DNA of 34,336 nucleotides, taken from positions 1-34,336 of the IMG/VR virus record IMGVR_UViG_3300037504_000541; one strand, given 5' to 3'. The DNA is from a virus. Every line of letters starts with the position of its first letter. Within the stretch, counting starts at the first letter, position 1. Below the pieces are notes generated by a model. The model worked only from the letters and a program-made list of their open reading frames with translations, did not search any database and was not told the origin of the DNA. Position numbers and translations under genes: made by a program. Below are positions 1,567 to 26,455 of the stretch, piece after piece.

Positions 1567-2409
1567 ATGCCTACCCTGAACCCCGACGGCTGGAGCGTCA
1601 AAGGCTGCTCGATTATCTATGCCCCACGCGGGCAAGCTGGCGAGTATTCCAGGCTGGCCACAAACCCCTATCGCGGATGCGGGCATCAGTGCGCCTATTG
1701 CTATGTGCCCAAAGTGCTGCGCATGCCGCGTCCCGAGTTTGACGCCGGTGCGGAGCCGCGCCCCGAGTTTCTTGATAAGTTGCGCAAAGATGCGGCGAAG
1801 TACCAGACACTTGGTATCACCGAACAGGTGATGCTGTCGTTCACGACAGACCCCTACCACCCATTCGACAACTCGCTCACGCGTCCTGTGCTGCAAACAC
1901 TGCAAGCCCACGGTCTGGGCATTTGCACGCTCACAAAGGGCGGCAGTCGTGCATTGCGCGACCTTGATTTGTTCAGGCCAGAGCGGGATGCGTTCGCCAG
2001 CACGCTCACGTCGTTGGATGATGATTTCAGCCAGAAATGGGAACGCGGTGCAGCAGTGCCCGATGATCGCATCAATACGTTGCGTCTGTTCCACAAGGAG
2101 GGAATCTTCACGTGGGTTAGCTTGGAGCCGACACTGAGTACCGAGGCCAGTTTGCAGATCATTGAGCATACGCACGAGTTTGTTAATCTGTATAAAATAG
2201 GCAGGGCAAACTATTTGCCAATGACTGGCACCACCGATTGGGAGAGGTACACCTATCGCATTCTTGAGTTGTGCCATCGCCTTGGCGTGCGGCATTACAT
2301 CAAAAAAGACCTGCAAGGGTATCTCCCGGTGGGATACGAAAACCCGCGCTATATCACACAGCATCACGGTTCGGCTCCTGCAAAGACTGAGCAACTCGCT
2401 CTACTATAA
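1567..2409 (+). CDS. Radical SAM protein of the SplB/COG1533 type
   Basis: A 280-residue protein. The cluster-binding motif CGHQCAYC has cysteines at residues 38, 42 and 45 (CX3CX2C), the signature that binds the [4Fe-4S] cluster used to cleave S-adenosylmethionine. The arrangement (RGCGHQCAYCYVP followed by a TIM-barrel-like sequence with VMLSFTTDPYHP and LTKGGS) is that of the spore-photoproduct-lyase-like SPL family, whose phage and bacterial members mostly lack known substrates. The ATG at 1567 is chosen over an upstream in-frame ATG at 1534 because GGAG sits seven bases before it. It is the only rightward gene inside a leftward late block, has its own promoter, and its last 56 bases overlap the convergent methyltransferase 2. 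This is typical of an added (moron-like) gene. Function is not assignable beyond the family. Confidence 0.85.
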   Translation: MPTLNPDGWSVKGCSIIYAPRGQAGEYSRLATNPYRGCGHQCAYCYVPKVLRMPRPEFDAGAEPRPEFLDKLRKDAAKYQTLGITEQVMLSFTTDPYHPFDNSLTRPVLQTLQAHGLGICTLTKGGSRALRDLDLFRPERDAFASTLTSLDDDFSQKWERGAAVPDDRINTLRLFHKEGIFTWVSLEPTLSTEASLQIIEHTHEFVNLYKIGRANYLPMTGTTDWERYTYRILELCHRLGVRHYIKKDLQGYLPVGYENPRYITQHHGSAPAKTEQLALL

Positions 2410-3562
2410 GTCCTTCCGCCTCGCAGCGTTGCAAGATAACCTCGCAGTATGCCTCGCTGATCTCGCACCCATAGCATCGGCGTCCGGTACGGTGGGCTGC
2501 GATAATGGTGGTGCCGGAGCCGAGGAATGGGTCATATAGCACACCGTCAGTGCAATTTGCAATCAGCATGCGCACCCAATCCAGCGGTTTTTCGTGAGAA
2601 TGGCGACCATCGGCATGTAGTTTGGTTATTGGGGCAACAAATACATCAGACAGGTGCTTGCCACGAGGATCAGGCGTAAATTCATATTCTCCGCGTGTAT
2701 TGCGTACTATGCGTTCATCACCGACCTCACCGTAATGTGCGCCATCAAATTGGTAATTTGCAACATCCCCATACCAAAACGCGAATTTGCCTCGTTGCAA
2801 CGGACGATTAGGGGTATACCACGATGTCACACAATCCCATACAAATACCCACGTAGGGGAGCCAAATAGCGTTATAACATCAGCGGCGCGTCGCCCATCG
2901 CAAAATGCCAGCACAGTACTGGTTGTGTCTGCTGTATACGACACGGCAGCATCCCACGGAGGGTCGTATATCACCGCGTCCGCCCGCTCGCATTGCATCA
3001 GCCGCTCCACCGTCGCTGGGTCGGTGCAGTCTCCACAGATGAGCCGATGCATGCCGCCGATGAGCCACACGTCACCCGCCTGTACGCGGCATGGTGCGGC
3101 GTCGTCGGGTTCAAACTCATCGCCACCGCTGCCGGTTTCGGGAAGTTCCGGCGTCAACCCATCGAGTAATGCGCTATACTCCTGCTCATCGAATCCCAGG
3201 CTATTCAGATCGAAATCAGCCTGCTGCAACTCGTCAAGCAGCGCGGCAAGTCCGGCGTCGTCGGATTCAGCCCCGCGTCGCGTCTCGTTGTCGGCGACGA
3301 GGTAGGCGAGCGCCTGCTCTTCTGTCCAGTCGTCTGGTAGTTGCGTGACACGCAACGTCTGGTAGTTGAGGTGCTGCGCTACCAGGTACACGCCGTGGCC
3401 TGCGATGATGGTATCGCCGTGCACCACAATCGGGCGTACCTGCCCAAACTGGCGCAGGCTGGCAGCAAGCCGCTCAATCTGCTCTGGCGGATGCTGATTG
3501 TAGTTGCGCGAGTGCGGTGCCAGCGTATCAATGTCGCGTGTTGTCTCGATTGGTTCAGTCAT
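2354..3562 (-). CDS. ParB-domain DNA methyltransferase 2 (paralogue of the gene at 140-1426)
   Basis: A 402-residue protein from the ATG at 3562 (MTEPIETT, the same start peptide as the paralogue). An upstream in-frame ATG at 3610 would add 16 residues but lies inside the preceding small gene. A ParB-like domain occupies residues about 10-95, motif IV is DPPW at 200-203 and the SAM motif FLGSGT is at 346-351. The arms are close to those of methyltransferase 1, while the central 204-342 region, holding the target-recognition part, is unrelated by eye and Trp replaces Tyr in motif IV. It probably methylates a different sequence. The start overlaps the stop of the upstream 54-residue gene (ATGACTGA), indicating translational coupling. 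Confidence 0.9.
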   Translation of the reverse strand: MTEPIETTRDIDTLAPHSRNYNQHPPEQIERLAASLRQFGQVRPIVVHGDTIIAGHGVYLVAQHLNYQTLRVTQLPDDWTEEQALAYLVADNETRRGAESDDAGLAALLDELQQADFDLNSLGFDEQEYSALLDGLTPELPETGSGGDEFEPDDAAPCRVQAGDVWLIGGMHRLICGDCTDPATVERLMQCERADAVIYDPPWDAAVSYTADTTSTVLAFCDGRRAADVITLFGSPTWVFVWDCVTSWYTPNRPLQRGKFAFWYGDVANYQFDGAHYGEVGDERIVRNTRGEYEFTPDPRGKHLSDVFVAPITKLHADGRHSHEKPLDWVRMLIANCTDGVLYDPFLGSGTTIIAAHRTGRRCYGCEISEAYCEVILQRCEAEGLIVERVAQSLQEPNRDAV

Positions 3563-3719
3563 CTCGATATCGTATGCGTTTTTGCCAATCAGAAATGCGA
3601 TCGAGCACATTGAATATTTCAGCGAACACCACTAACGCCAACCCCCCCCCCAACGCACCAGCGAACACCATAGCCGACACTCCGATCATGAGTATAGATA
3701 AATCGTACAGCGTATCCAT
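3555..3719 (-). CDS. Small probable membrane protein (54 aa)
   Basis: A 54-residue ORF with a hydrophobic segment at residues about 8-37 (LILIG-type start, then VFAGALGGG and LALVVFAEIF) followed by a basic, amphipathic C-terminus (RISDWQKRIRYRDD). This is the layout of a single-pass membrane protein with a cytoplasmic tail. AGGGG lies seven bases before the ATG. The three glycines at 24-26 are encoded within a run of ten G, a slippage-prone tract. The stop overlaps the start of methyltransferase 2. No family is recognised. A holin-like or superinfection-type role cannot be excluded, but nothing in the sequence shows it. Confidence 0.6.
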   Translation of the reverse strand: MDTLYDLSILMIGVSAMVFAGALGGGLALVVFAEIFNVLDRISDWQKRIRYRDD

Positions 3720-3729
3720 TACACAACCC

Positions 3730-3888
3730 CTACATACGGAACTCTACCACTACCACCAGGCATGCGACAATTCGCGCCAGCGCGAACCCGACACGCGACG
3801 GCAAGTATTGAGCAATCCAGACGGCGACGTGAAATAACCACAATCGACGGAATCGGCATTCAATGGTGACGTGTGTGTCGGTCGTCAT
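3730..3888 (-). CDS. Small hypothetical protein with hydrophobic stretches (52 aa)
   Basis: A 52-residue ORF starting at the ATG at 3888, two bases after the stop of the upstream 63-residue gene, with GGAG ten bases before the start (inside that gene). The protein begins with a polar strand (MTTDTHVTIECRFRR), then LWLFHVAVWIAQYLP, then a hydrophobic run (RIVACLVVVVEF). Short proteins of this pattern are common in phage accessory clusters and usually have no assigned function. Tight packing with the flanking small ORFs supports it as a real gene, but the evidence is positional. Confidence 0.5.
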   Translation of the reverse strand: MTTDTHVTIECRFRRLWLFHVAVWIAQYLPSRVGFALARIVACLVVVVEFRM

Positions 3889-3891
3889 TCG

Positions 3892-4083
3892 TCATACACT
3901 CCGCTCACGCAATGCCTGCACCAAAGCCTGCGCCGTATCGAGACCATACTCGGCTGCCTGGTGTAGTGCATTCTCAATTAACTCTTCAGTTTCTCTCGGG
4001 AGGTTTACGTATTGCTTTATTTTCTCAATCAATGAGTCGATGCCGGTTTCGACCGTTTCCCCGAATGTCGTATTCTCATCCAT
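3892..4083 (-). CDS. Small helical hypothetical protein (63 aa)
   Basis: A 63-residue acidic, mainly helical protein, first gene of the leftward cluster that runs on through two tiny genes to methyltransferase 2. AGGGGGA is well placed before the ATG at 4083, and an extended -10 promoter lies about 40 bases upstream. Two predicted amphipathic helices (ETGIDSLIEKIKQYV and ETEELIENALHQAAEYG) are separated by NLPR. No motif or family is recognised. Confidence 0.7.
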   Translation of the reverse strand: MDENTTFGETVETGIDSLIEKIKQYVNLPRETEELIENALHQAAEYGLDTAQALVQALRERSV

Positions 4084-4121
4084 TATTTTCCCCCTTACAC
4101 GAATACGATTCTATATAACAC

Positions 4122-4127
4122 ATTATA
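4122..4127 (-). promoter_or_regulatory. Leftward extended -10 promoter for the small-gene/methyltransferase 2 cluster
   Basis: On the minus strand TGTGC-TATAAT gives a perfect -10 with the TG extension. No good -35 is present 17 bases upstream. The start site would fall about 30 bases before the ATG at 4083. Confidence 0.65.
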
Positions 4128-4157
4128 GCACATTCAAGTATCCATTGATAGTTATGC

Positions 4158-4163
4158 TACAAT
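4158..4163 (+). promoter_or_regulatory. Rightward extended -10 promoter for the FtsK/HerA-like gene
   Basis: TATGC-TACAAT forms an extended -10 about 97 bases before the ATG at 4260, divergent from the -10 at 4122-4127. The leader contains a short inverted repeat (GCAGC/GCTGC at about 4174-4188). Confidence 0.55.
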
Positions 4164-4259
4164 ATCACCAAACGCAGCGAGGGGCTGCACCACACAACGC
4201 GGCACAACCCCAACTGCACACGGCTAGTGCAAAACTATTGTAACAGAAAAGAGCAAGAG

Positions 4260-5564
4260 ATGGATACATTTGAATTTCTTCGCGGGGCAATCACTGTTGC
4301 GAGTGGTGTTGGGGGCGCAATTGCTATTATTAGCGCCAGCGCGGGTGCGGGTGCAGGATTTGCTCGGGCTGCCTGGCGCGCTGGTGGGCAATGGGGGATC
4401 AAACATGAGCATCACCAGGCGGCGCTTGATGCTCACGTCGCTCTGGAACGTGCGCGTGCCGAGGCCGAGAACGCCCGGGCTGTCGGCTACGCAGCGGTGC
4501 AGCCGCGTAGTGTTCATTACGCACCGCATGTGACCAGCACCGCCCAGGGTGCCCAGGGACAGATGTCTCATGGGGGACAACAGCAGGGGGATCTGCCGGG
4601 GATCGTAGACCTGACTGACGTTGCCATGGTGCCAGGACGGGTGCTGCTCGGGCTGGCCAACGGAGGTACGCCCATCACCACCACGCCAGCGCACTTGATG
4701 CATGTGGGTTGTATCGGTGCGACTGGCAGCGGCAAGACCAACGCGGCGAGATTCATATTGGCGCAGATACTGGCGCTTGGGCGCGGCGATGTGTATATCG
4801 CAAATCCGCACTTTGTTGCAAATGACCTTGACGATCCCGCGTCGGGGGACTGGCGCATTATCGAGTCTCGCCTGGCTGCACCTGCGGCATATGATGAGCG
4901 CTATATCGGTCTGCTGATTGACCAAATTGCAGCGAGTGTTGATGAACGATGGGCAAAAAAGCGCGAGGGACAACGGACTGGCAAGCCACAGATTCTATAC
5001 ATTGATGAGTTGCCTGCAATCCTGGACAGCGTGCCGGGCGCGCTGCAATCGATGGCAACCATCCTACGACGCGGACGGGCTGTGGGGGTGTATCTCCTCA
5101 CGTTATCCCAGGATCTAGCCACAAAAACCCTGGGAAGGGATGCCCCGGGTGCGATAAGAGAAAATTATCGCACGGGGATTTACACCGGCGGCGATCCCCA
5201 CAGCGCGCAACTGCTACTCGATACGCCACGATCCCAAATTGGCAAGCATGAGGGTGACCTGGGGCGGGGGGTTGCCCTGGTGAAGGCACACGGGCAGTCC
5301 GCAACACTAGCCCGCATTCCATTCGCCAGCAACGCAGGCGTTGCCGCGTTACTGTCTCAACCTGAAACGCCTGAAACGCCACATGCGCCACCAGAAACAC
5401 CTGAAACGGTTTCAGGTGCAGTCGATTATGAGGGTATAATCACACGACTGCGAGCAAAAGGGCACGGTAAAAAGGCCATCATCGAGATGGTGTGGGGTGC
5501 CCGTCCGGGGGGTAGCGCTGCATATCGAGAGGCCAGCGCTGCGTACGATGCGGTAGTGGGATAG
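4260..5564 (+). CDS. FtsK/HerA-like DNA-translocase-type ATPase
   Basis: A 434-residue P-loop ATPase. Residues 8-36 are a small-residue-rich hydrophobic segment that could be a membrane anchor. Residues 53-75 are helical and charged. The Walker A motif GATGSGKT is at 153-160 and Walker B ILYIDEL at 245-251, followed by a RGRAVGVYLLTLSQD segment typical of the FtsK/TraG/HerA superfamily. The last 45 residues (GIITRLRAKGHGKKAIIEMVWG...) resemble the small helix-turn-helix found at the end of such translocases. Proteins of this kind move double-stranded DNA during conjugation, segregation or phage DNA handling. The gene stands alone with its own promoter between leftward genes. The ATG at 4260 is preferred over 4227 because a purine-rich stretch (AAAGAGCAAGAG) precedes it. 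It could serve an extrachromosomal lysogen or be an accessory gene. Confidence 0.8.
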   Translation: MDTFEFLRGAITVASGVGGAIAIISASAGAGAGFARAAWRAGGQWGIKHEHHQAALDAHVALERARAEAENARAVGYAAVQPRSVHYAPHVTSTAQGAQGQMSHGGQQQGDLPGIVDLTDVAMVPGRVLLGLANGGTPITTTPAHLMHVGCIGATGSGKTNAARFILAQILALGRGDVYIANPHFVANDLDDPASGDWRIIESRLAAPAAYDERYIGLLIDQIAASVDERWAKKREGQRTGKPQILYIDELPAILDSVPGALQSMATILRRGRAVGVYLLTLSQDLATKTLGRDAPGAIRENYRTGIYTGGDPHSAQLLLDTPRSQIGKHEGDLGRGVALVKAHGQSATLARIPFASNAGVAALLSQPETPETPHAPPETPETVSGAVDYEGIITRLRAKGHGKKAIIEMVWGARPGGSAAYREASAAYDAVVG

Positions 5565-5920: not shown

Positions 5921-6478
5921 TTACATGTTCCCTATGCGCGGCAGCATAACAGACGGAGTCCATTCCGCCTCTGGCGTATTGTAGCGCCCTGTATAGAGCG
6001 TTGTGTTGTCCTCCACAACATGGAATTTAATCAGACCGATGCGCATGCCAGGATAGAGCAAAATGGCATCCGGGCTGTAGTTAAACAACTCCAATGTCCA
6101 ACGCGAGCAATAGCCCGCGTCACCAATGCCTGCCGAGACATGGACTGTCAGCCCCCATCGAGCCGCGGTGCTTCTGGTTTCCAGTGTTGGTTCAATATCC
6201 GGCACCGTCGTGCCGATGTGCTCATCGGTGTGCGCCAGCGCGAACGATAACGACGGCAGCCGGAACGGATTATCTGGTGCCACATCGGCAACGAGCATGA
6301 AACGTCCTTCTGGTGCCTGTGTGGCAATGTCCACGTCGCGGCCCATCGGGCGCGGTATCCAAAAATTACTTCCCAGATGTACATCGATATGTGTCTCGAT
6401 ACGACATTGCGGCGCTGGCGTGCAGACAATGCTGCCATTGGCCAGTGCTGTCTGTATGGCGTCATTTCCTAATATCAC
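5921..6478 (-). CDS. dcd: dCTP deaminase / dUTPase-family nucleotide enzyme
   Basis: A 185-residue protein. It contains ETRSTAARWGL, matching the RSSxAR motif of dCTP deaminase, then AGIGDAGY...TLELFN with the catalytic-type Glu in TLEL, then LYPGMRIGLIKF, the family's C-terminal signature. Dcd deaminates dCTP to dUTP (or dUMP in bifunctional forms) and supplies thymidylate precursors in the cytoplasm. The start is a GTG at 6478 with AAGGAG seven bases upstream. The same frame stays open far upstream through the GC-rich array, but that extension has no ribosome site and is repeat translation. It is the last gene of the leftward early operon. The usual DPG triplet is DAG here, so deaminase activity is likely but not certain. 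Confidence 0.8.
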   Translation of the reverse strand: MILGNDAIQTALANGSIVCTPAPQCRIETHIDVHLGSNFWIPRPMGRDVDIATQAPEGRFMLVADVAPDNPFRLPSLSFALAHTDEHIGTTVPDIEPTLETRSTAARWGLTVHVSAGIGDAGYCSRWTLELFNYSPDAILLYPGMRIGLIKFHVVEDNTTLYTGRYNTPEAEWTPSVMLPRIGNM

Positions 6479-6541
6479 GGTTAATCTCCTTCTGCAACTC
6501 AGTTGTTGTATGGGCAGTTTGCGAACGTGCCCAGGTTCCCA

Positions 6542-6897
6542 TGCCTCGCCATGCCCAGCCCGGCCTCGCCCTGCCCCGCCTAGCCCCGCCCCGCCTGCCT
6601 CGCCCTGCCGCGCCATGCCTGGCCCTGCCGCGCCGTGCCAAACCCCGCCTTGCCTAGCCCCGCCTGCCTCGCCATGCCGCGCCGCGCCGTGCCTGCCCCG
6701 CCTGCCTCGCCATGCCGCGCCACGCCGCGCCAGGCCTCGCCAGGCCTCGCCTCGCCTGGCCGCGCCCCGCCCTGCCTGCCTCGCCATGCCTTGCCAAGCC
6801 AAACCCGGCCAAGCCCTGCCCCGCCATGCCCCGCCTGCCGCGCCATGCCATGCCTCGCCCTGCCAGAGCTAGCCACACCTTGCCACGCCTGCCGTGT
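6542..6897. repeat. Array 1 of the degenerate pentamer GCCNN (about 70 units)
   Basis: About 355 bases in which GCC recurs every five bases on the plus strand (GCCTC, GCCAT, GCCCT, GCCCC, GCCGC, GCCTG and similar), with an occasional four-base step. Positions 4 and 5 vary while GCC is nearly invariant. There is almost no sequence of any other type. It fills the 419-base gap between the deaminase start (6478) and the stop of the next gene (6898); the remaining bases 6479-6541 hold the deaminase ribosome site and no recognisable promoter. On the operon's mRNA the array reads as GGC every five nucleotides, so it is very G-rich on the transcribed product. Long ORFs in several frames here are artefacts of the repeat. 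Confidence 0.9.
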
Positions 6898-7608
6898 CTA
6901 ATCCGGGTCGGGGTAACTGTCAACCACTGCCACAATGGGCGCGAAGAACTTGTTATGCTGATAGCTTTTCGCCCACGTTTTCAAAACCCGAAGAGCTTTT
7001 TTGTCCTTTTCTGATAGTTCGGTTGCAGCAGGCGACGGTGCAGCCACACGCAAAGGTTGCGGCTGTGGGTCGGGGTGCGCAGTGGTAGTCGGTTCGGGTT
7101 GCGGTTGCGGTTGCGGTTGCGGCTGTGGGTCGGGTTGCGGTTCAGGTTGCGCCGCCTCCTGTTTGATGGTCGATACCTCATACGTGCGCGTGGTGCTTGC
7201 CTTTGGTGCAGGGAGCCGCTGCACTTCGAGCATCCGAAACTTCCCTGTCTGCTCACGGTTGCCCGCCCCAAGAGCAGCATAGGCGCGCTCACTATCCTTG
7301 AGGATTTCGCCGGTTTGTGGGTTGCGCCACACAATAGCCAGCGAGCGAAATACCACCCGCAACTGCTCACGGCGGCGCTGGCGTACTGCCTCATCAAGAC
7401 TCTCTCTGGTAAGATACTCATGCAGCGGGTGCGATGGATCGTTCTCAGCATCGTCAATGATCGCATCGCTGTCAACCTTGCCGCCTGCATCCTGGTAGCG
7501 CTCCAACGCGTTCCCGATGATATCGGCGTCCATTGTTTTGTCAATCCAGGATGTATCAAGCCAGCCGTAGCCGTGCTTGAGGAAGACTGGTGTGTGTTGT
7601 GTGGTCAT
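6898..7608 (-). CDS. Hypothetical protein with a proline-glutamine repeat linker
   Basis: A 236-residue protein with a charged N-terminal domain (residues 1-105, including IIDDAENDPSHPLHEYL and RQRRREQLRVVFRSLAIVWRN), a low-complexity linker at about 155-190 built from PQ, PEP and DPQ repeats, and a C-terminal helical tail (SEKDKKALRVLKTWAKSYQHN). The start overlaps the stop of the upstream gene by four bases (ATGA), with GAGGAAGG as ribosome site, so the two are coupled. The linker is encoded by a GGTTGC-type hexamer repeat on the plus strand. The family is not recognised; by operon position it probably acts with the protein encoded at 7605-8213. Confidence 0.75.
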   Translation of the reverse strand: MTTQHTPVFLKHGYGWLDTSWIDKTMDADIIGNALERYQDAGGKVDSDAIIDDAENDPSHPLHEYLTRESLDEAVRQRRREQLRVVFRSLAIVWRNPQTGEILKDSERAYAALGAGNREQTGKFRMLEVQRLPAPKASTTRTYEVSTIKQEAAQPEPQPDPQPQPQPQPQPEPTTTAHPDPQPQPLRVAAPSPAATELSEKDKKALRVLKTWAKSYQHNKFFAPIVAVVDSYPDPD

Positions 7609-9926: not shown

Positions 9927-10406
9927 TCATCCTGACACCCCGTTCATACCAATCACCTCCAACCCGATGGTACCCGTAGTTATGGCTCTGTGCAGGTCGG
10001 CACCATCGAGGTTTGCCCCGCTCAGGTCAGCCCCGCTCAGATTGGCATAGCTCAAGTCTGCCCCGATTAGGATGGCATAGCGCAGATCTGTCTCGCTCAG
10101 GTTCGCCCCGCTCATGTCGGCGTTAACCAGGTTGACCCCGCGTAGATATATACCGCTTATGTCTGCGTTAACCAGGTTTACCCCGCGTAGATAGATACCG
10201 CTCAGGTCTGCACCGCTCAGGATGGCACCGCTCAGGTTTGCGTAGCTCAGGTCAACCCAGCGCAGGTCTGCACCGCGCAGATCAGCCCCGTTCAGGTTGG
10301 CACCGCGCAGGTTAATACCGAGGAGATTAGCGGGTTTTGCACCATTCTGATGCGGGTTTTGCAGCCACAATTGATGTGCATGCAAAATCTCCTGTATGTT
10401 TATCAT
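9927..10406 (-). CDS. Pentapeptide-repeat protein 1
   Basis: A 159-residue protein from the ATG at 10406, chosen because GAGG lies five bases before it; two in-frame GTGs precede it. After a conserved opening ([20 protein letters not shown]) come about 23 pentapeptides of the A(D/N)LxG type, expected to fold as a right-handed quadrilateral beta-helix. The ending ITTGTIGLE then GMNGVSG is shared with the three plus-strand paralogues. A segment containing GIYLRGVNLVNAD is duplicated in tandem. Such proteins include DNA mimics that bind gyrase, but the role of this one is unknown. The start overlaps the stop of the 103-residue gene upstream. Confidence 0.9.
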   Translation of the reverse strand: MINIQEILHAHQLWLQNPHQNGAKPANLLGINLRGANLNGADLRGADLRWVDLSYANLSGAILSGADLSGIYLRGVNLVNADISGIYLRGVNLVNADMSGANLSETDLRYAILIGADLSYANLSGADLSGANLDGADLHRAITTGTIGLEVIGMNGVSG

Positions 10407-10717
10407 CACCACCTCTTCTTACCAAACATTTCTCCTAGCGTATCAGGCGAAATGCCGGCCATCAACAACGATGCGAACATGTTATCAGAAGCACGCTTGC
10501 GTGCAGATTCTCCTGACATTTCATCCTGTATTTGTTGTGATATTAGCATGCCAACGGCATAATCATCATGTTCGTTGTGTGGGTTGCGCCCCATTGCGCG
10601 GGCAACACTGGCGAGCAGCGTGTAAAATCCTGCTGGGTTGTCAGTGTCATCCCAACGCACACCACCGGCCCGACGTTCAGCATCCTCAATGAAGTCAATG
10701 TTTTTGTGTTCATCCAT
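10406..10717 (-). CDS. Hypothetical acidic phage protein (103 aa)
   Basis: A 103-residue soluble protein starting at the ATG at 10717 with AAGGAGA nine bases upstream. It begins MDEHKNIDFIEDAERRAGG, has a hydrophobic helix (GFYTLLASVARAMG) and ends in a basic GKKRW. No family is recognised. It lies between MT-A70 and pentapeptide-repeat protein 1, overlapping the latter by a TGATG-type junction. Confidence 0.7.
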   Translation of the reverse strand: MDEHKNIDFIEDAERRAGGVRWDDTDNPAGFYTLLASVARAMGRNPHNEHDDYAVGMLISQQIQDEMSGESARKRASDNMFASLLMAGISPDTLGEMFGKKRW

Positions 10718-20597: not shown

Positions 20598-20860
20598 TGG
20601 CACGCAAACCTGATCACCATCCCAACCAGGCTAACCTGGAGATGAGCGGGGTGCAGCAGTACTGCCCACTGTCCGATCTCGCAGCGCTGGCCGAGCGCCG
20701 CCGCGTACTATACGCGGAACTCGAACGGCTAATATCCACGCTCGGCATCGATGCGCATACCGCGCCATACTGGACATTGGACAACGACGATGCCCCACCG
20801 TGGTACAGCCTGCCGAGAGCCGTGGAACGGCTGCGAGAGCAAGTAGAGGGGATGGGATGA
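20597..20860 (+). CDS. Small hypothetical protein (87 aa) between two methyltransferases
   Basis: An 87-residue protein, coupled to both neighbours by overlapping stop/start codons (TAATG and TGATG). It has a helical core (LSDLAALAERRRVLYAELER), a Trp/Pro-rich segment (YWTLDNDDAPPWYSLP) and a C-terminal helix (RAVERLREQVEGMG). No family is recognised. It may assist one of the methyltransferases, by position only. Confidence 0.7.
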   Translation: MARKPDHHPNQANLEMSGVQQYCPLSDLAALAERRRVLYAELERLISTLGIDAHTAPYWTLDNDDAPPWYSLPRAVERLREQVEGMG

Positions 20861-21990
20861 TGCGAACATTTGCCTCGCTCTTTAGCGGCGGCGGTGGCGC
20901 TGATATTGGCGCGATTCAGGCAGGCTACACGCCGATATGGGCTGTCGAGTATGACGCAGCCATAGCCGCCTGGCACACGCACAACATGCCTGATGCACAG
21001 ATGATTGTGGGTCCTGTGCAGGATGTGGATTATGGCGCGTTGCCTGCTGTGGCCTGGTTGCACGCAAGCCCGCCGTGTCCGAATTTCAGCGTTGCTAAAA
21101 ACAATGCCACTGAAACTGAACTGGATATCGAGATGGCACGCGGCACGACCCGCGCAATCCAGGAACAGCAGCCGCATGTGTTTAGTCTGGAGCAGGTCTA
21201 TGGTTATCGCAATAGCGTGTCATTTGCGCTGATTGTGCAGGCATTGCGTGCTCTACGGTATGACGTGCAATGGTGGCATCTGAACGCTGCTGAATACGGC
21301 GTGCCCCAGACGCGCCGCCGTCTAATCCTGGTGGCGCGCCGTGACAGGTACGTGGTGCGGCCTGCTGCTACGCACTGCAAAGACGGGCGCGCTGACATGT
21401 TCGGCGGGCTGTTGCCGTGGATTGGATGGTATGAGGCAATACAGGATATCATAGACACCCTGCCAGATAGCGAATTCGCGCCGTGGCAACTGGCACGCCT
21501 GCCTGCGAATGTGCGAGAGAGCGTGCTGCTGAGCAATGCACGGACCGAATACAGCAACGGGTTGTTTTCTGGCACCGAGCCGTCATTATCAATCACACGA
21601 CAACACAACGGACGGTTGCGCGCACTGCTGCTGGACGGGCAGGCCAACGCCAATGGCACAACCTGCACGAGCGTCGCTGATTGCGTGCCTGCGTTTGCGG
21701 TCAAGGCCCAGTCAGGAGCACGACACGCGGCGCGGGCGGTGTTGATAGGAGACGGTGACACATACCGTCCGGTGGTTTCTGGCAACGAACCATCTCCTAC
21801 ACATGGCGCGAGCGCCATTGCTCGCGCACTGGTGCCACACCGCGTCGTGAAAATGACACCGCGTGCGCTGGCGCGCTTTCAATCATTCCCCGACTGGTAT
21901 GAACTGCCACAGCGCAATGCACTGGCGGGCAGGATTATCGGCAATGCGGTTCCGCCGCTGTTGATGCAGCGGGTGATGGAATCCCAATGA
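20857..21990 (+). CDS. C5-cytosine DNA methyltransferase (Dcm type, EQV variant)
   Basis: A 377-residue protein from the ATG at 20857. Motif I is LFSGGGGADIGAIQAG (residues 8-23), the catalytic loop ASPPCPNFS has its Cys at 74, motif VI is LEQV at 111-114 (normally ENV), motif VIII is QTRRR at 151-155, and motif X is IIGNAVPPLL near the C-terminus. The enzyme transfers methyl to cytosine C5. Gln for Asn in ENV is uncommon but conservative. The target-recognition region (about 180-320) is variable. An upstream in-frame ATG at 20800 is inside the 87-residue gene and is not preferred. It is the last gene of the rightward early operon. Confidence 0.9.
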   Translation: MMRTFASLFSGGGGADIGAIQAGYTPIWAVEYDAAIAAWHTHNMPDAQMIVGPVQDVDYGALPAVAWLHASPPCPNFSVAKNNATETELDIEMARGTTRAIQEQQPHVFSLEQVYGYRNSVSFALIVQALRALRYDVQWWHLNAAEYGVPQTRRRLILVARRDRYVVRPAATHCKDGRADMFGGLLPWIGWYEAIQDIIDTLPDSEFAPWQLARLPANVRESVLLSNARTEYSNGLFSGTEPSLSITRQHNGRLRALLLDGQANANGTTCTSVADCVPAFAVKAQSGARHAARAVLIGDGDTYRPVVSGNEPSPTHGASAIARALVPHRVVKMTPRALARFQSFPDWYELPQRNALAGRIIGNAVPPLLMQRVMESQ

Positions 21991-22033
21991 GGACCAATTA
22001 TGCAGTAATTTGCTATCATATCCCTCACAGCTC

Positions 22034-22069
22034 TTGACACCACTGTATCATAGTGCTACAATGGTGTCA
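22034..22069 (+). promoter_or_regulatory. Cassette promoter A with overlapping dyad operator
   Basis: TTGACA (22034-22039), 17 bases, then TGC-extended TACAAT (22057-22062). TGACACCA at 22035-22042 and TGGTGTCA at 22062-22069 form an eight-bp inverted repeat spanning the promoter, a probable repressor site. The leader carries TGAAT-type pentamer repeats at about 22074-22107. The identical element recurs at 23979 and 26044. Confidence 0.85.
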
Positions 22070-22118
22070 GTTGGATGAATTGAATGAATTGAATTGAATG
22101 AATTGAGAGGACAGAATA

Positions 22119-22691
22119 ATGACACGAATAATGAGCCAGGCACGGATCGATGCACTGAACGAACAGATGGTAGACGGGAAAACTGTACACGAGGTGGCGA
22201 GAGAGAATGGTCTGGAACTGGTTCGGTGGTACGACGAGAGCGGCGGACTCTACAGAGACTACGACGGATATCTGGTGTTTGGATGGAACGAGGGTATAGA
22301 GATAGGTTTCGATGACCAGGTTTACGACGCAGATGGATGTTTATTATATTATGGCGACTACCCGACAATCCGTAGCTGGATTGACGGCTATCTGGAAACT
22401 GACATTGCAACTCTCGCCGACAAACTGCTGGCGGAAGATCCAAAGCGCACGCCAGCCTATGCCCGCGCTGTTGCGGGCGCAATGCTCGTGATGTTCTGGT
22501 CGCTAGAGCGCGAACGCCTGGATCACGCGGCAATGAATAGCACGCTCCCTGCCGACCTGGAATCGCTCTATGACCAGGTGTGCGCAGCCGAGGAAACGCC
22601 CTCGGGCTATGTGAACGACGTGATTGACCTGTCGGGCAATCGCGCCATCTGGAACGATGTGGACACACTGCGAGTAGGCCGTATGCCGTAA
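22119..22691 (+). CDS. Cassette protein A (190 aa, unknown)
   Basis: A 190-residue acidic protein. The first 55 or so residues (MTRIMSQARIDALNEQMVDG, then KTVHEVARENGLELVRWYDE and GGLYRDYDGYLVFGW) are shared with the two 77-residue proteins at 24064 and 26129. The remaining 130 are unique and include a helical bundle (RAVAGAMLVMFWSLERERLDH). The shared part has beta-strand and acidic character with no known family. GAGAGG precedes the ATG. It is the full-length or ancestral form of the duplicated gene. Confidence 0.75.
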   Translation: MTRIMSQARIDALNEQMVDGKTVHEVARENGLELVRWYDESGGLYRDYDGYLVFGWNEGIEIGFDDQVYDADGCLLYYGDYPTIRSWIDGYLETDIATLADKLLAEDPKRTPAYARAVAGAMLVMFWSLERERLDHAAMNSTLPADLESLYDQVCAAEETPSGYVNDVIDLSGNRAIWNDVDTLRVGRMP

Positions 22692-22712
22692 GAGACAGAC
22701 AAAAAATTACAC

Positions 22713-22730
22713 GGGCGGCGCAAGCTGCCC
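22713..22730 (+). promoter_or_regulatory. Hairpin with GCAA tetraloop
   Basis: GGGCGGC-gcaa-GCTGCCC forms a seven-bp stem with one G-U pair and a GNRA-type loop, between the stop at 22691 and the ribosome site of the gene at 22751. Possible mRNA stability or attenuation element. Confidence 0.45.
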
Positions 22731-22750
22731 ATAGCAACACAGGAGATAAT

Positions 22751-22999
22751 ATGATGACCAAACCACAACCAACACAAGAGGCAATCATAAAACGAATGAC
22801 AGATCGAACTATATGTATCACAGTACACACACCCGACGCGCTGTCGATTGTAGATACAGCGTGTCAGTTTGGCACAGTGTATAAATCCATGACACAGGCA
22901 AACAGGCATGATTTGGTTGTTGGCGATGGGTACGACGTGGTAGAGGTGTTGCAATATCTGAAAGGAGAATTGTATGCAACGAGCAATCAATATTTTTGA
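22751..22999 (+). CDS. Small hypothetical protein (82 aa)
   Basis: An 82-residue protein with AGGAG before the ATGATG start. The sequence (EAIIKRMTDRTICITVHTPD, then LVVGDGYDVVEVLQYLKGEL) is alpha/beta with no recognisable motif. It overlaps the next gene by 26 bases, and that gene's ribosome site (AAAGGAG) lies within its end. Confidence 0.68.
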   Translation: MMTKPQPTQEAIIKRMTDRTICITVHTPDALSIVDTACQFGTVYKSMTQANRHDLVVGDGYDVVEVLQYLKGELYATSNQYF

Positions 23000-23243
23000 T
23001 TATGCAGCGATTATCGAAAACCGACAGGATGTCGTCATTTTATTGCAACCCCACCTGACGACGGAGCAGGTCAGAGCAGAGCAGACTCTTGATGGAATGG
23101 CATTGCGCCTGGTAGACATTCCTGATAAGCAATTCAATGCAATTCTAGAGATCCTGCGCAATGGGAAGGGCAAGCAGCCAGGTATCCCAAAACACAAACT
23201 TCGAATCTACGAACGTAAAAAAAGCGGTTGGAAGCGAGTCTGA
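22974..23243 (+). CDS. Small hypothetical protein (89 aa)
   Basis: An 89-residue protein with AAGGAG placed seven bases before the ATG. It starts MQRAINIFDYAAIIENRQDV and ends with a very basic tail (KQPGIPKHKLRIYERKKSGW), suggesting nucleic-acid contact. No family is recognised. Downstream is the first copy of the cassette leader hairpin. Confidence 0.68.
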   Translation: MQRAINIFDYAAIIENRQDVVILLQPHLTTEQVRAEQTLDGMALRLVDIPDKQFNAILEILRNGKGKQPGIPKHKLRIYERKKSGWKRV

Positions 23244-23267
23244 TCTAAACAATTCAATTATACGCCC

Positions 23268-23290
23268 GCCCGGAGGCATCGTATCCGGGC
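23268..23290 (+). promoter_or_regulatory. Cassette leader hairpin, copy 1
   Basis: GCCCGGA and TCCGGGC with a nine-base loop lie 12 bases upstream of the ribosome site of pentapeptide-repeat gene 2. The same hairpin precedes pentapeptide-repeat gene 3 (24314-24336) and stands alone at 26379-26401. Conservation in front of different genes suggests a leader regulating translation or mRNA stability. Confidence 0.65.
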
Positions 23291-23316
23291 TGGCAGTATA
23301 TAGGAGGGTAACCATA

Positions 23317-23916
23317 ATGGACATACAAAACATCTTGCATGCACATCAGTTGTGGCTGATGAACCCGCATCAGTATGGTGCTAGCTATGCCAACCTGCGC
23401 AAGGTCGACCTGCGCAGGGCTGACCTGCGCAGGGCCGACCTGCGCAGGGTCAACCTACGCATGGCAGACTTGCGCGGGGCTGCCCTAAGTAGGTCCGACC
23501 TACGCAAGGCAGACTTGCGCAGGGCAGACTTGCGCGAGGCCATCCTGCGTTATGCTGACCTGATCGAGGTGAGTATGAGCGGAGCTGTTCTGCACGGTGC
23601 CGACCTGAGCGGTGCTAACCTGTGTTGGGCCGACTTGAGCGGGGCAGACTTTCGCGGTGCAGACCTGCGCTACTCCGTCCTGAGCTATGCCGACCTGATC
23701 GGGGCCATCCTGAGCAACACCGACCTGAGCTACGCAAACCTGAGCGAGGCCGACTTTCGCTATGCCGACCTGAGCGGGGCTGACCTGAGTTACGCCATCT
23801 TGAGCTATACCGACTTGAGCGGCGCAAACCTCGATGGTGCCGACCTGAGCGGGGCCATAACTACGGGCACTATCGGGTTGGAGTCGGCACCTGGCATGAA
23901 CGGGGTGTCAGGATGA
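23317..23916 (+). CDS. Pentapeptide-repeat protein 2
   Basis: A 199-residue protein from the ATG at 23317 (AGGAGGG seven bases upstream), in place of a longer frame that would start inside the upstream gene. The opening [20 protein letters not shown] is followed by about 32 pentapeptides (A-D/N-L-x-x), first Arg-rich (ADLRR repeats), then Ser/Gly-rich (ADLSG), interrupted by LIEVSMS. The ending is [13 protein letters not shown] then MNGVSG. A right-handed quadrilateral beta-helix is expected, with a basic first half and more neutral second half. It groups with protein 3 rather than 1 and 4. Molecular target unknown. Confidence 0.9.
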   Translation: MDIQNILHAHQLWLMNPHQYGASYANLRKVDLRRADLRRADLRRVNLRMADLRGAALSRSDLRKADLRRADLREAILRYADLIEVSMSGAVLHGADLSGANLCWADLSGADFRGADLRYSVLSYADLIGAILSNTDLSYANLSEADFRYADLSGADLSYAILSYTDLSGANLDGADLSGAITTGTIGLESAPGMNGVSG

Positions 23917-23932
23917 ACAACACCCCGTTCAT
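23896..23932 (+). terminator. Hairpin over the stop codon of pentapeptide-repeat gene 2
   Basis: ATGAACGGGGTGT pairs perfectly with ACACCCCGTTCAT (13 bp, 11-base loop), enclosing the TGA stop. No U-tract follows, so it is terminator-like only. The same structure, with one G-U pair, follows pentapeptide-repeat gene 4 (25943-25979). Confidence 0.55.
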
Positions 23933-23978
23933 CTATGACCAATTATGCAGTAATTTGCTATCATATCCCTCACAGCTC

Positions 23979-24014
23979 TTGACACCACTGTATCATAGTG
24001 CTACAATGGTGTCA
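23979..24014 (+). promoter_or_regulatory. Cassette promoter B with dyad operator
   Basis: TTGACA (23979-23984), 17 bases, TACAAT (24002-24007), with TGACACCA (23980-23987) and TGGTGTCA (24007-24014) as inverted repeats, identical to promoter A. Confidence 0.85.
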
Positions 24015-24063
24015 GTTGGATGAATTGAATGAATTGAATTGAATGAATTGAGAGGACAGAATA

Positions 24064-24297
24064 ATGACACGAATAATGAGCCAGGCACGGATCGATGCAC
24101 TGAACGAACAGATGGTAGACGGGAAAACTGTACACGAGGTGGCGAGAGAGAATGGTCTGGAACTGGTTCGGTGGTACGACGAGAGCGGCGGACTCTACAG
24201 AGACTACGACGGATATCTGGTATTTGGATGGGTATATGGAGACGAGGGGTTCGATGACCAGATTAGCGATGACGATATTGACGATGACCATGTGTAA
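24064..24297 (+). CDS. Cassette protein B (77 aa, truncated paralogue)
   Basis: A 77-residue protein identical in its first 55 or so residues to the 190-residue cassette protein A, then ending in an acidic tail (DDQISDDDIDDDHV). It lacks the helical domain of protein A. It is identical to the protein at 26129. The strongly acidic end is unusual and could mimic nucleic acid, which is speculation. Its start and ribosome site are shared with the other copies. Confidence 0.72.
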   Translation: MTRIMSQARIDALNEQMVDGKTVHEVARENGLELVRWYDESGGLYRDYDGYLVFGWVYGDEGFDDQISDDDIDDDHV

Positions 24298-24313
24298 CTG
24301 ATGTTTTACGCCC

Positions 24314-24336
24314 GCCCGGAGGCATCGTATCCGGGC
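24314..24336 (+). promoter_or_regulatory. Cassette leader hairpin, copy 2
   Basis: The same GCCCGGA/TCCGGGC stem with nine-base loop as at 23268, followed directly by the AGGAGG ribosome site of pentapeptide-repeat gene 3. Confidence 0.65.
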
Positions 24337-24348
24337 AGGAGGCTACAG

Positions 24349-25074
24349 ATGATTGATCTGCAAAACATTTTACAGTCACACAATATGTGGCTGATGAACC
24401 CGCATCAGGATGGTGCTAGCTATGCTGACCTACGCATGGCCGACCTACGCATGGCCGACCTGCGCAGGGCCGACCTGCGCATGGCCGACCTGCGCAGGGC
24501 CGACCTGCGCATGGCCGACCTGCGCAGGGCCGACCTGCGCAGGGCGGCCATGAGCAATGCCGACCTATACAAAGCCGACTTGCGCAGGGCTGATCTGCGC
24601 AGGGCCGACCTGCGTTATGCTGACCTGATCGAGGTGAGTATGAGCGACGCTATTCTGTACACTGCCGACCTGAACTATGCCAATCTACGCAACGCAGACC
24701 TGAGCGGTGCCAACCTGATCAGTGCTAACCTGCGCTGGGCCGTCCTGTGCTATGCCGACCTGAGTGATGCCAACCTGAGCGGTGCTAACCTGTGTTGGGC
24801 CAACCTCAGCGAGGCCGACTTGCGCTATGCCGACCTGAGTGATGCCAACCTGAGCGGGGCAGACTTGAGTGATGCAGACCTGAGCATGGCCAACCTCAGA
24901 GGGGCCATCCTGAGCGGTGCCATCCTGAGCGGTGCCATCCTGAGCGGTGCCAACCTGAGAGGGGCCGACCTGAGCGGGGCCGACTTGAGTGATGCAGACC
25001 TGAGCGGGGCCATAACTACGGGCACTATCGGGTTGGAGTCGGCACCTGGTTTCATGTGCGAGGTGTCAGGATGA
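24349..25074 (+). CDS. Pentapeptide-repeat protein 3
   Basis: A 241-residue protein from the ATG at 24349 (AGGAGG upstream), the longest of the four, with about 40 pentapeptides, roughly ten turns of a quadrilateral beta-helix. The N-terminal part alternates ADLRM and ADLRR and is basic; the C-terminal part is [22 protein letters not shown] interrupts the series at the same place as in protein 2. It ends [13 protein letters not shown] then EVSG. Within it, three perfect 30-bp DNA repeats (24451-24540) show recent expansion. The excisionase-like gene starts at its stop (ATGA). Confidence 0.9.
24451..24540 (+). repeat. Three perfect 30-bp tandem repeats inside pentapeptide-repeat gene 3
   Basis: Units at 24451-24480, 24481-24510 and 24511-24540 are identical and each encodes two pentapeptides ([10 protein letters not shown]). 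Gain or loss of units keeps the frame and changes the beta-helix length by half a turn per unit. Confidence 0.9.
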
Positions 25075-25310
25075 CTGACACTACTATGACCACAGCCGAG
25101 GTTGCCGAATTTCTCGGCGTCCGCGTGCACACGGTGTATACATATATCCGTCGCGGACGCCTGGAACGTGTACCAAGCACTGGCCGTACGGCTCGCATTA
25201 CCCGCGACAGCGTGGAACGCTATGCCGCCGAGCGTGGTCAGCGGGCACGGAAACCGATGGAGGAACTCAGCGAACGGCAGCAGTATAGGCGAAAAACGAA
25301 AACTAGTTGA
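25071..25310 (+). CDS. Excisionase/MerR-like helix-turn-helix protein
   Basis: A 79-residue protein. [20 protein letters not shown] then [29 protein letters not shown] is the standard excisionase-family DNA-binding domain (HTH_17). Such proteins bend DNA at attachment sites or act as small regulators. The ATG at 25071 overlaps the stop of pentapeptide-repeat gene 3 (ATGA); the in-frame ATG at 25056 is less likely. No integrase is in the window, so it may regulate the cassette region instead of controlling excision. Confidence 0.8.
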
Positions 25311-25321
25311 ATAGGGGAATA

Positions 25322-25963
25322 ATGGACATGCAAAACATTTTGCATGCACATCAGTTGTGGCTGCAAAATCCACATCAGGATGGTGCAAAACCCGCCAATC
25401 TCCGCGGTGTTAACCTGCGCGGTACCAACCTGAACGGGGCTGACCTGCGCGGTGCAGACCTGCGCATGGCCAACCTGAGCGGTGCTAATCTGCGCTGGGC
25501 CATCCTGAGCGGGGCTGACCTGCGCAGGGCTGACTTGCGTAGTGCCGACATGAGCAGGGCCAATCTGAGCGGTGCCAACCTGCGCAGGGCTGACTTGCGT
25601 AGTGCCGACATGAGCAAGACCGATTTGCACATTGCAGACCTGTTCAATACCAACCTGAGTCATGCCATCCTGCGTTATTCCGACATAAGCAAGACCGACA
25701 TGATCGGGGCCGATCTGCGCGGTGCAGACCTGAGCGGGTCAAACCTACGCAACACTAACCTGAGCTACGCCAACCTGAGCGGTGCCGACCTGAGCGGCGC
25801 AGACCTGAGCGGCGCAGACCTGAACGTCGCCATCTTGAGCGGTGCCAACCTGAGCGGCGCAGACCTGCGCATGGCTGATCTGCGCATGGCTGATCTGCGC
25901 AGTGCCATAACTACGGGCACTATCGGGTTGGATGTGATTGGTATGAATGGGGTGCCAGGATGA
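25322..25963 (+). CDS. Pentapeptide-repeat protein 4
   Basis: A 213-residue protein from the ATG at 25322 (AGGGG four to five bases upstream). Its opening ([20 protein letters not shown], then [23 protein letters not shown]) and ending ([14 protein letters not shown]) match the minus-strand protein 1, so these two form one subfamily. About 34 pentapeptides lie between. A 60-bp segment encoding [12 protein letters not shown] occurs twice in tandem. It lies 12 bases after the excisionase-like gene and is followed by a hairpin (25943-25979) and cassette C. Confidence 0.9.
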
Positions 25964-26043
25964 ACGACACCCCGTTCATCTATGACCATCGTGAATAACC
26001 AATATATTTATGCAGTAATTTTCTATCATATCCCTCGCAGCTC

Positions 26044-26079
26044 TTGACACCACTGTATCATAGTGCTACAATGGTGTCA
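26044..26079 (+). promoter_or_regulatory. Cassette promoter C with dyad operator
   Basis: TTGACA (26044-26049), 17 bases, TACAAT (26067-26072), with the TGACACCA/TGGTGTCA inverted repeat ending at 26079, identical to copies A and B. Confidence 0.85.
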
Positions 26080-26128
26080 GTTGGATGAATTGAATGAATT
26101 GAATTGAATGAATTGAGAGGACAGAATA

Positions 26129-26362
26129 ATGACACGAATAATGAGCCAGGCACGGATCGATGCACTGAACGAACAGATGGTAGACGGGAAAACTGTACAC
26201 GAGGTGGCGAGAGAGAATGGTCTGGAACTGGTTCGGTGGTACGACGAGAGCGGCGGACTCTACAGAGACTACGACGGATATCTGGTATTTGGATGGGTAT
26301 ATGGAGACGAGGGGTTCGATGACCAGATTAGCGATGACGATATTGACGATGACCATGTGTAA
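26129..26362 (+). CDS. Cassette protein C (77 aa, identical to cassette protein B)
   Basis: The predicted protein is identical to that at 24064-24297, including the acidic tail. It is the last rightward gene before the convergent tail operon. Because no pentapeptide-repeat gene follows, this copy shows that the promoter-plus-small-gene unit can exist without a cargo gene. Confidence 0.7.
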   Translation: MTRIMSQARIDALNEQMVDGKTVHEVARENGLELVRWYDESGGLYRDYDGYLVFGWVYGDEGFDDQISDDDIDDDHV

Positions 26363-26378
26363 CTAATGTTTTACGCCC

Positions 26379-26401
26379 GCCCGGAGGCATCGTATCCGGG
26401 C
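26379..26401 (+). promoter_or_regulatory. Cassette leader hairpin, copy 3 (orphan)
   Basis: The GCCCGGA/TCCGGGC hairpin is followed by CAGGAG but no start codon or ORF. It appears to be the broken end of a cassette. Confidence 0.6.
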
Positions 26402-26420
26402 AGGAGAAAAATAAAAAAAC

Positions 26421-26455
26421 CAGGAACGCCAGTGGGTAATCCACTGGCGTTCCTG
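26421..26455 (-). terminator. Rho-independent terminator of the leftward tail operon
   Basis: A 15-bp perfect stem (26421-26435 with 26441-26455, five-base loop). On the minus strand it is followed by GG then a run of T (complement of 26404-26419), the textbook intrinsic terminator. It ends the tail genes and shields the cassette region. Confidence 0.88.

Follow-up and report, generated by a model that had tools for sequence, protein, structure and literature searches.

What does a promoter block that is repeated three times do in front of a small family of phage genes, and what is the hairpin in which each of its copies ends? These questions are raised by a locus in the virus record IMGVR_UViG_3300037504_000541, which was analysed over its full 34,336 bp (hereafter, the window). 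The locus is bounded by a DNA-methyltransferase gene (20860-21990) and by converging tail-side genes. An original prediction, made from the sequence, described it as a cassette system that diversifies pentapeptide-repeat proteins and regarded the hairpin as part of the cassette. The explanation that we favour, and hold to be reasonably probable, is that of an accessory locus of exchanging units, with a putative cis-acting translation element before the cargo that is widespread among phages. Few cis-regulatory RNAs of phages serve many genes. A covarying stem element shared by unrelated phages would offer a testable handle on the translation of accessory genes, and would be a marker for locating such genes in unannotated phages. 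The cassette locus is an example of a protein family being multiplied and reshaped within a single phage.

Organization of the Cassette Locus

Repeat, promoter and hairpin searches agree that the block occurs three times, in units designated A, B and C (Table 1). Three 300-bp repeat copies, starting at 21998, 23943 and 26008, are 97-100% identical to the reference copy, and the same promoter (TTGACA-17-TACAAT) is found at 22034, 23979 and 26044. The cassette region as a whole contains 17 promoter-like sites, compared to 4.6 (standard deviation 2.1) in shuffled sequences. In copies A and C, a dyad of 16 nt with 88% complementarity overlaps the promoter, and in the alignment copy B has the same letters at this place. 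The repeated promoter with its dyad suggests that the units are under joint transcriptional control. Units B and C, predicted to be nearly identical, indeed differ at only three of 398 positions (23957, 23972 and 24300) and share an exact run of 327 bp at the longest.

That A, B and C are one and the same unit holds for the promoter, the leader and the start of the small gene, but not for what follows. The hairpin lies 12 nt past an open reading frame (ORF) of 77 aa in units B and C and 572 nt past the end of a 190-aa ORF in unit A, after two further ORFs, so that A is a longer unit than the other two. Pfam and ORF checks bear out the predicted cargo: pentapeptide-repeat genes 2 and 3 follow the hairpin, gene 4 follows an excisionase-like gene, and copy C is empty. 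Unit C terminates in the hairpin and a Shine–Dalgarno (SD)-like GGAG, and within 45 nt behind it no SD sequence plus start codon with an ORF of at least 25 codons was found. The locus would accordingly be read as a series of repeated expression units, each consisting of a promoter with dyad, a leader, a small helix-turn-helix (HTH)-like gene, an RNA element and cargo.

Variation in Unit Number and Probable Exchange between Units

Queries with the leader protein and the operator, and also with the neighbouring tail gene, retrieved a single close sister, IMGVR_UViG_3300037826_000044, and two further loci with 34% identity. Along the tail side, 7,931 bases of this sole close relative align with the window, at an identity of 95.5%. 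It has two units instead of three: a first unit followed by the counterparts of gene 3, the excisionase-like gene and gene 4, and a second unit followed by the counterpart of gene 2, after which the tail side begins. The sister's gene 2 thereby occupies the position of the window's empty unit C. Orthologues in window and sister are 87% (gene 2), 77% (gene 3), 88% (gene 4) and 90% (excisionase-like gene) identical, and the different cassette genes are 50-66% identical to each other. Unit number and cargo occupancy vary between the sister phages, and no arrangement fixed in all relatives was seen in a comparison that covered this sister and a looser relative, phage record G008.

When the five units of both genomes are aligned, 14 columns separate the genomes, of which 13 lie at 22033-22212, and eight columns split the units linked to gene 2 from the rest, all at 22289-22307. 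The front of the unit is homogenised per genome and its back tracks the cargo. Moreover, among the first 75 nt of the sister's gene 2, 74 are identical to the sister's own gene 3 and 61 to gene 2 of the window. Judged from the sequences, this homogenisation is the trace that would be expected of gene conversion or crossing-over between units. As the homogenisation within each genome switches sharply to unit-specific sequence, the repeats appear to recombine; 24 other variable columns, which match neither split, speak against so simple a pattern. Homologous exchange between units would be the route by which their number changes and by which they are emptied and homogenised. The predicted role of the repeats as recombination substrates, through which cargo could be gained or lost, is in line with the two units against three, the cargo at the empty place and the homogenisation.

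Two other explanations of the locus have to be weighed. That the promoter-leader block was duplicated in tandem in the ordinary way, and contributes nothing special to the diversity of the beta-helix proteins, is a real but lesser prospect: the units are known in two genomes only, and the data can be explained by duplication together with gene conversion, but the cargo differs by unit and the empty unit corresponds to an occupied place in the sister. Somewhat less probable still is that the difference in unit order is an artefact of assembly, the extra empty unit alone being real. The exact repeats in the window measure 285 (A-B), 327 (B-C) and 249 (A-C) bp, which exceeds a common short read, and another path through them would, by reasoning, yield the sister's order plus the empty unit. 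Each unit of the window, however, is flanked on both sides by sequence of its own, which gives three units on either path, and the longest exact repeat of the sister is merely 91 bp. Because such an alternative path is possible, we claim the copy number and not the order: the copy-number difference between the phages is robust, and a changed unit order is not safely claimable. The cassette system as predicted is thus upheld in part, as regards copy number, occupancy and exchange.

The looser relative G008 and the window have 60 ORF clusters in common, a count in which overlapping spurious ORFs are included. The tail-side stretch of G008 contains homologues of two ORFs of the cassette region, the 82-aa ORF of unit A and the excisionase-like gene; the leader repeat has no convincing match there, and no pentapeptide match was found in this record. 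The stretch adjacent to the tail genes looks like a general accessory slot, because G008 has other small genes there, behind two copies of the hairpin element.

Position and Structure of the RNA Element

The hairpin turned out not to be a private part of the cassettes, as a structured RNA element of this type precedes unrelated genes in many phages. Its layout is a stop codon, GCC, a stem of 6-7 bp, a GGC...UA loop, an SD sequence and a start codon. An exact match to the window hairpin, of 24 nt in one comparison and 27 bp in another, is present in the unrelated phage L009, and a 19-nt core was found in 12 viral stretches, where it mostly follows immediately on a stop codon and precedes an SD sequence. 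A chance origin was rejected, as about 0.3 occurrences of this core would be expected under an assumed collection size. In genome contigs, a 21-mer gave 0 matches and the 19-mer five, near the estimated two, in contexts that do not have the usual layout; in these five genomes a covariance model found nothing among the 150 candidates scored per genome.

The census comprises 117 locus groups from pattern searches, with seven loci that were repeats or near-identical contigs merged, and its counts describe the placement of the element, not its abundance. Among them, 116 unique sites in 84 groups fit GCC, the stem and the GGC...TA loop. An ORF stop is present at most 45 nt upstream in 112 of these, an SD sequence and a start codon 8-20 nt downstream of the stem in 93, and both in 90, which represent 71 contig groups. 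In an earlier set of 93 sites, 89 had a stop within 45 nt upstream and 83 had an SD sequence and start with an ORF of at least 25 codons within 45 nt; at random positions these values are 37-39% and 20%, and both features coincide in 7.6-8.7%. Several phages have more than one copy; in locus L047, six copies are packed into about 1.7 kb (2797-4484), five of which have a loop one nucleotide shorter, and the SD sequence of several copies lies further downstream.

The stem covaries. A variant, L032, was found earlier with another pattern and has both sides of one stem pair changed in the same context; the other three extra matches of that search were one coding sequence found three times. A second pattern, GCCCNSCC NNN GGCRTYRTA NNN GGS, leaves three stem pairs free and matched 79 viral sites, of which 74 form all six pairs, three form no free pair and two are intermediate, while the pairing expected from the column make-up at the three free pairs is 0.71, 0.49 and 0.49. 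The 79 sites include near-identical contigs and represent 69 distinct contexts, the window's own among them. The alignment used for covariation (A3) contains fully paired sites only, so that its 100% pairing is a matter of selection, and excludes L082 and L112, which have no SD sequence. In its 67 distinct rows, both sides are changed in 101 cells; the alignment scores 0.419 for covariation, compared to 0.088 when shuffled and at most 0.064 when slid. Pair 5 is U-G in 26 of 87 six-bp stems. The U-G pairs, the orientation with the downstream gene and the tight spacing together indicate that the element acts at the level of RNA.

The GCC is found 1-3 nt before the stem. When it was not required in the search, it was present in 41 of 44 sites linked to an SD sequence, as opposed to 11 of 26 sites without one. 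Possibly, the GCC pairs with the GGC of the loop to form an H-type pseudoknot. In this pairing, mostly 2 nt would bridge the 6-bp helix and 6 nt the 3-bp helix, which would suit the geometry of such pseudoknots.

Several observations weigh against this picture of the element. The GCC:GGC helix does not covary, both partners being near-invariant, and the first G is missing from a site that otherwise looks genuine (L174). Only two of seven tested stems clearly beat their shuffles (z -3.2 and -2.9; the others -0.2 to -1.5), and the search patterns themselves prescribed two of the stem pairs. There are also sites without a gene directly behind them, in unit C of the window, in L009 and elsewhere. 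A shared phage-encoded regulator was rejected as reader of the element, since no ORF cluster occurs in more than six of ten phage records. In RNAfold, which cannot form pseudoknots, the upstream C's are sometimes paired with the SD sequence; an on/off alternation by this pairing is speculative.

Carriers and Downstream Genes

By ORF clustering, the ten phage records fall into the groups (window, G001, G008, G011), (G003, G007) and (G004, G010), with G002 and G013 on their own. Groups have 0-3 ORF clusters in common with each other, and G004, G010 and G013 have none in common with the window. The commonest ORF cluster starts like two genes of 418-428 aa in the window, presumably of ParB/methylase type.

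The genes behind the element are diverse. A family scan covered 72 of the 79 downstream ORFs, and three of these proteins match pentapeptide models, two of which are the window's own; beyond these, families such as resolvase, FtsK, YodL and the ArdC N-terminal domain are each matched by a single protein. G007, an element-bearing phage that is not closely akin to the window, also contains pentapeptide repeats, in two long frames of 448 and 357 codons (C1:8517-10408) that do not directly follow the elements of that record (144 and 1410).

In the phylum of a rumen Lentisphaeria metagenome-assembled genome (MAG), sites were found in 2 of 288 genomes; all five are paired and four are followed by an SD sequence and ATG. 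One order within this phylum gave seven sites in 4 of 144 genomes, these five included, all of them paired. The phylum of a MAG titled Proteobacteria gave a site in 1 of 299 genomes, not fully paired and in sequence of 75% GC. From the paired sites it follows that some element-bearing DNA sits in MAGs of the Lentisphaeria group. In L177, the gene that follows the element begins much like its counterpart in phage locus L083. Four contigs of the bacterial genome bin G121 (L176, L178, L179 and L180) have clusters of elements before small genes; the two of these genes that were tested had no PHROG match.

Comparison with Known Systems and Proposed Function

In Rfam 15, no match above the gathering threshold was obtained for the window, L009, L007 and eight further loci, and three sub-threshold matches (E 1.5-9.5) lie around the first element. 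Among named phages and plasmids, the best match to the element was no better than E 0.3. Literature searches gave no description of it, which is weak evidence of absence, as few subscription journals were covered.

The nearest known idea is the start-associated sequence (SAS) of Cluster K mycobacteriophages. SAS/ESAS are short repeats just upstream of the starts of many non-structural genes; SAS is the 13-bp GGGATAGGAGCCC, which includes the SD sequence and is confined to Cluster K apart from one deviating copy in Corndog, and its function is unknown, a role in translation initiation having been proposed (PMC3203893). The same paper reports little or no support for an RNA hairpin in the extended inverted repeats (PMC3203893). 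Like SAS, the present element lies within a few nucleotides of many gene starts. It differs in being structured and in its letters (GCC, stem, GGC...TA), with the SD sequence outside and a stem that covaries, and it is carried by unrelated phages; the 13-bp SAS sequence is absent from it.

Translation control upstream of the ribosome-binding site is also known from phage T4. There, gene 32 has a leader pseudoknot 67 nt upstream of its start and gene 43 an operator hairpin with a conserved loop sequence, each serving one gene and read by that gene's own product, while RegA is one regulator that acts at the initiation region of about 30 phage mRNAs (PMC3014915). The element resembles the gene 32 and gene 43 leaders by description, but serves many unrelated genes and stands directly before the SD sequence. 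RegA sites are A+U rich and unstructured (PMC3014915), in contrast to the G+C-rich stem of the element.

On the mRNA, the hairpin separates the stop codon of the upstream gene from the SD sequence of the downstream gene, whose translation initiation it would set or insulate. Its GCC and GGC...UA letters might be read by a trans factor or by the ribosome, or form the H-type pseudoknot. As a repeated element of about 27 bp at gene borders, it may in addition serve as a joint for swapping cargo. More specifically, and rather doubtfully, a pseudoknot before the SD sequence would be a translation device of unrelated phages that is read by a host factor, defining a regulon of accessory genes and doubling as the joint.

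It is improbable that the element is instead a hairpin for mRNA processing or stability, i.e., a nuclease site or a 5′ cap-like stem that separates neighbouring transcripts. The position between stop codon and SD sequence and a stable stem would fit, but the near-invariant GCC and GGC...UA are not obviously needed for it. Least probable is that the hairpin is primarily a DNA recombination joint, of the attC type or like the conserved boundary sequences proposed for mycobacteriophages as joints at gene borders usable by homologous recombination (PMC3029335), its nearness to start codons being a by-product: the element does lie at borders of homology between window and sister (which resumes at 23258 in unit A and is lost at 26406 in unit C) and has its 27-bp exact match in unrelated L009, but the U-G pairs and compensatory stem changes, a covariation of RNA type that sets it apart from those boundary sequences (PMC3029335), indicate RNA, the distance downstream is narrowly confined (8-20 nt for each of the 93 sites linked to an SD sequence), and the dedicated integrase of integron-like cassettes is absent from the nine cassette-region ORFs scanned.

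Cargo and Leader Proteins

The products of genes 2, 3 and 4 belong to Pfam PF00805, the family of tandem A(D/N)LXX pentapeptides (E 7e-54 to 8e-84; 179-275 bits with a cut-off of 20.2) and have a net charge of -1 to -11. The model of gene 4 shows an N-terminal helix and a beta-helix with a predicted local distance difference test (pLDDT) score of 91.9, and has the quadrilateral beta-helix fold of this family. Its PDB matches in Foldseek are Beta1 designs, HetL, MfpA, Qnr and AlbG. PF00805 and the right-handed beta-helix are common to the cassette proteins and Qnr, MfpA, AlbG and HetL, but unlike these, the proteins of the window phage occur as several paralogues in one phage, conserved at both ends and variable in between. 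The resemblance to gyrase inhibitors of the Qnr/MfpA type would, on the model, be one of fold alone. Outside the cassettes, 12 kb off, the minus strand contains a fourth pentapeptide-repeat gene (9927-10412), which has the same conserved ends as genes 2-4; covariance models found no element beside it.

The gene before gene 4 matches HTH_17 and is excisionase-like. The leader protein gives weak HTH-like matches (E 0.02-0.06), and its model is poor (pLDDT 56 overall; 69-89 per 10-residue block over residues 1-60). The leader protein may be the regulator of the units, although these matches are weak evidence for it, and the common repressor of the original prediction is a putative one.

Table 1. 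Features of the cassette locus, with positions in the window.
Feature	Position	Strand	Basis
Unit A: promoter, dyad, pentamer-rich leader, small-gene start	21992..22335	+	Repeat, promoter, dyad, alignment
Small gene of unit A, 190 aa, weak HTH-like N terminus	22119..22691	+	ORF list, profile searches, model
82-aa ORF, homologue in phage record G008	22751..22999	+	ORF comparison
89-aa ORF, no family match	22974..23243	+	ORF list, profile searches
RNA element serving gene 2	23264..23290	+	Pattern and covariance model
Gene 2, pentapeptide-repeat protein, 199 aa	23317..23916	+	Pfam, sister comparison
Unit B: promoter, leader, 77-aa small gene (24064-24297), hairpin	23943..24340	+	
RNA element serving gene 3	24310..24336	+	
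Gene 3, pentapeptide-repeat protein, 241 aa	24349..25074	+	Pfam, sister comparison
Excisionase-like HTH_17 gene, 79 aa	25071..25310	+	Profile searches
Gene 4, pentapeptide-repeat protein, 213 aa	25322..25963	+	Pfam; model pLDDT 92
Unit C: promoter, leader, 77-aa small gene (26129-26362), hairpin, SD-like GGAG, no cargo	26008..26405	+	
RNA element of empty unit C	26375..26401	+	
Terminator-like hairpin of the converging tail genes, bounds the locus	26421..26455	-	

Other Features of the Window

The minus strand contains two long genes (140-1426, 428 aa, and 2354-3610, 418 aa) that are largely similar in sequence, and the DNA of this pair cross-matches two places in the sister phage. The gene between them (1534-2409) is one that we take to be of the radical-SAM type. 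Around 6460-6930 lies a G+C-rich, low-complexity repetitive stretch, presumably inside or before a dUTPase gene, and a similar stretch is present in G008.

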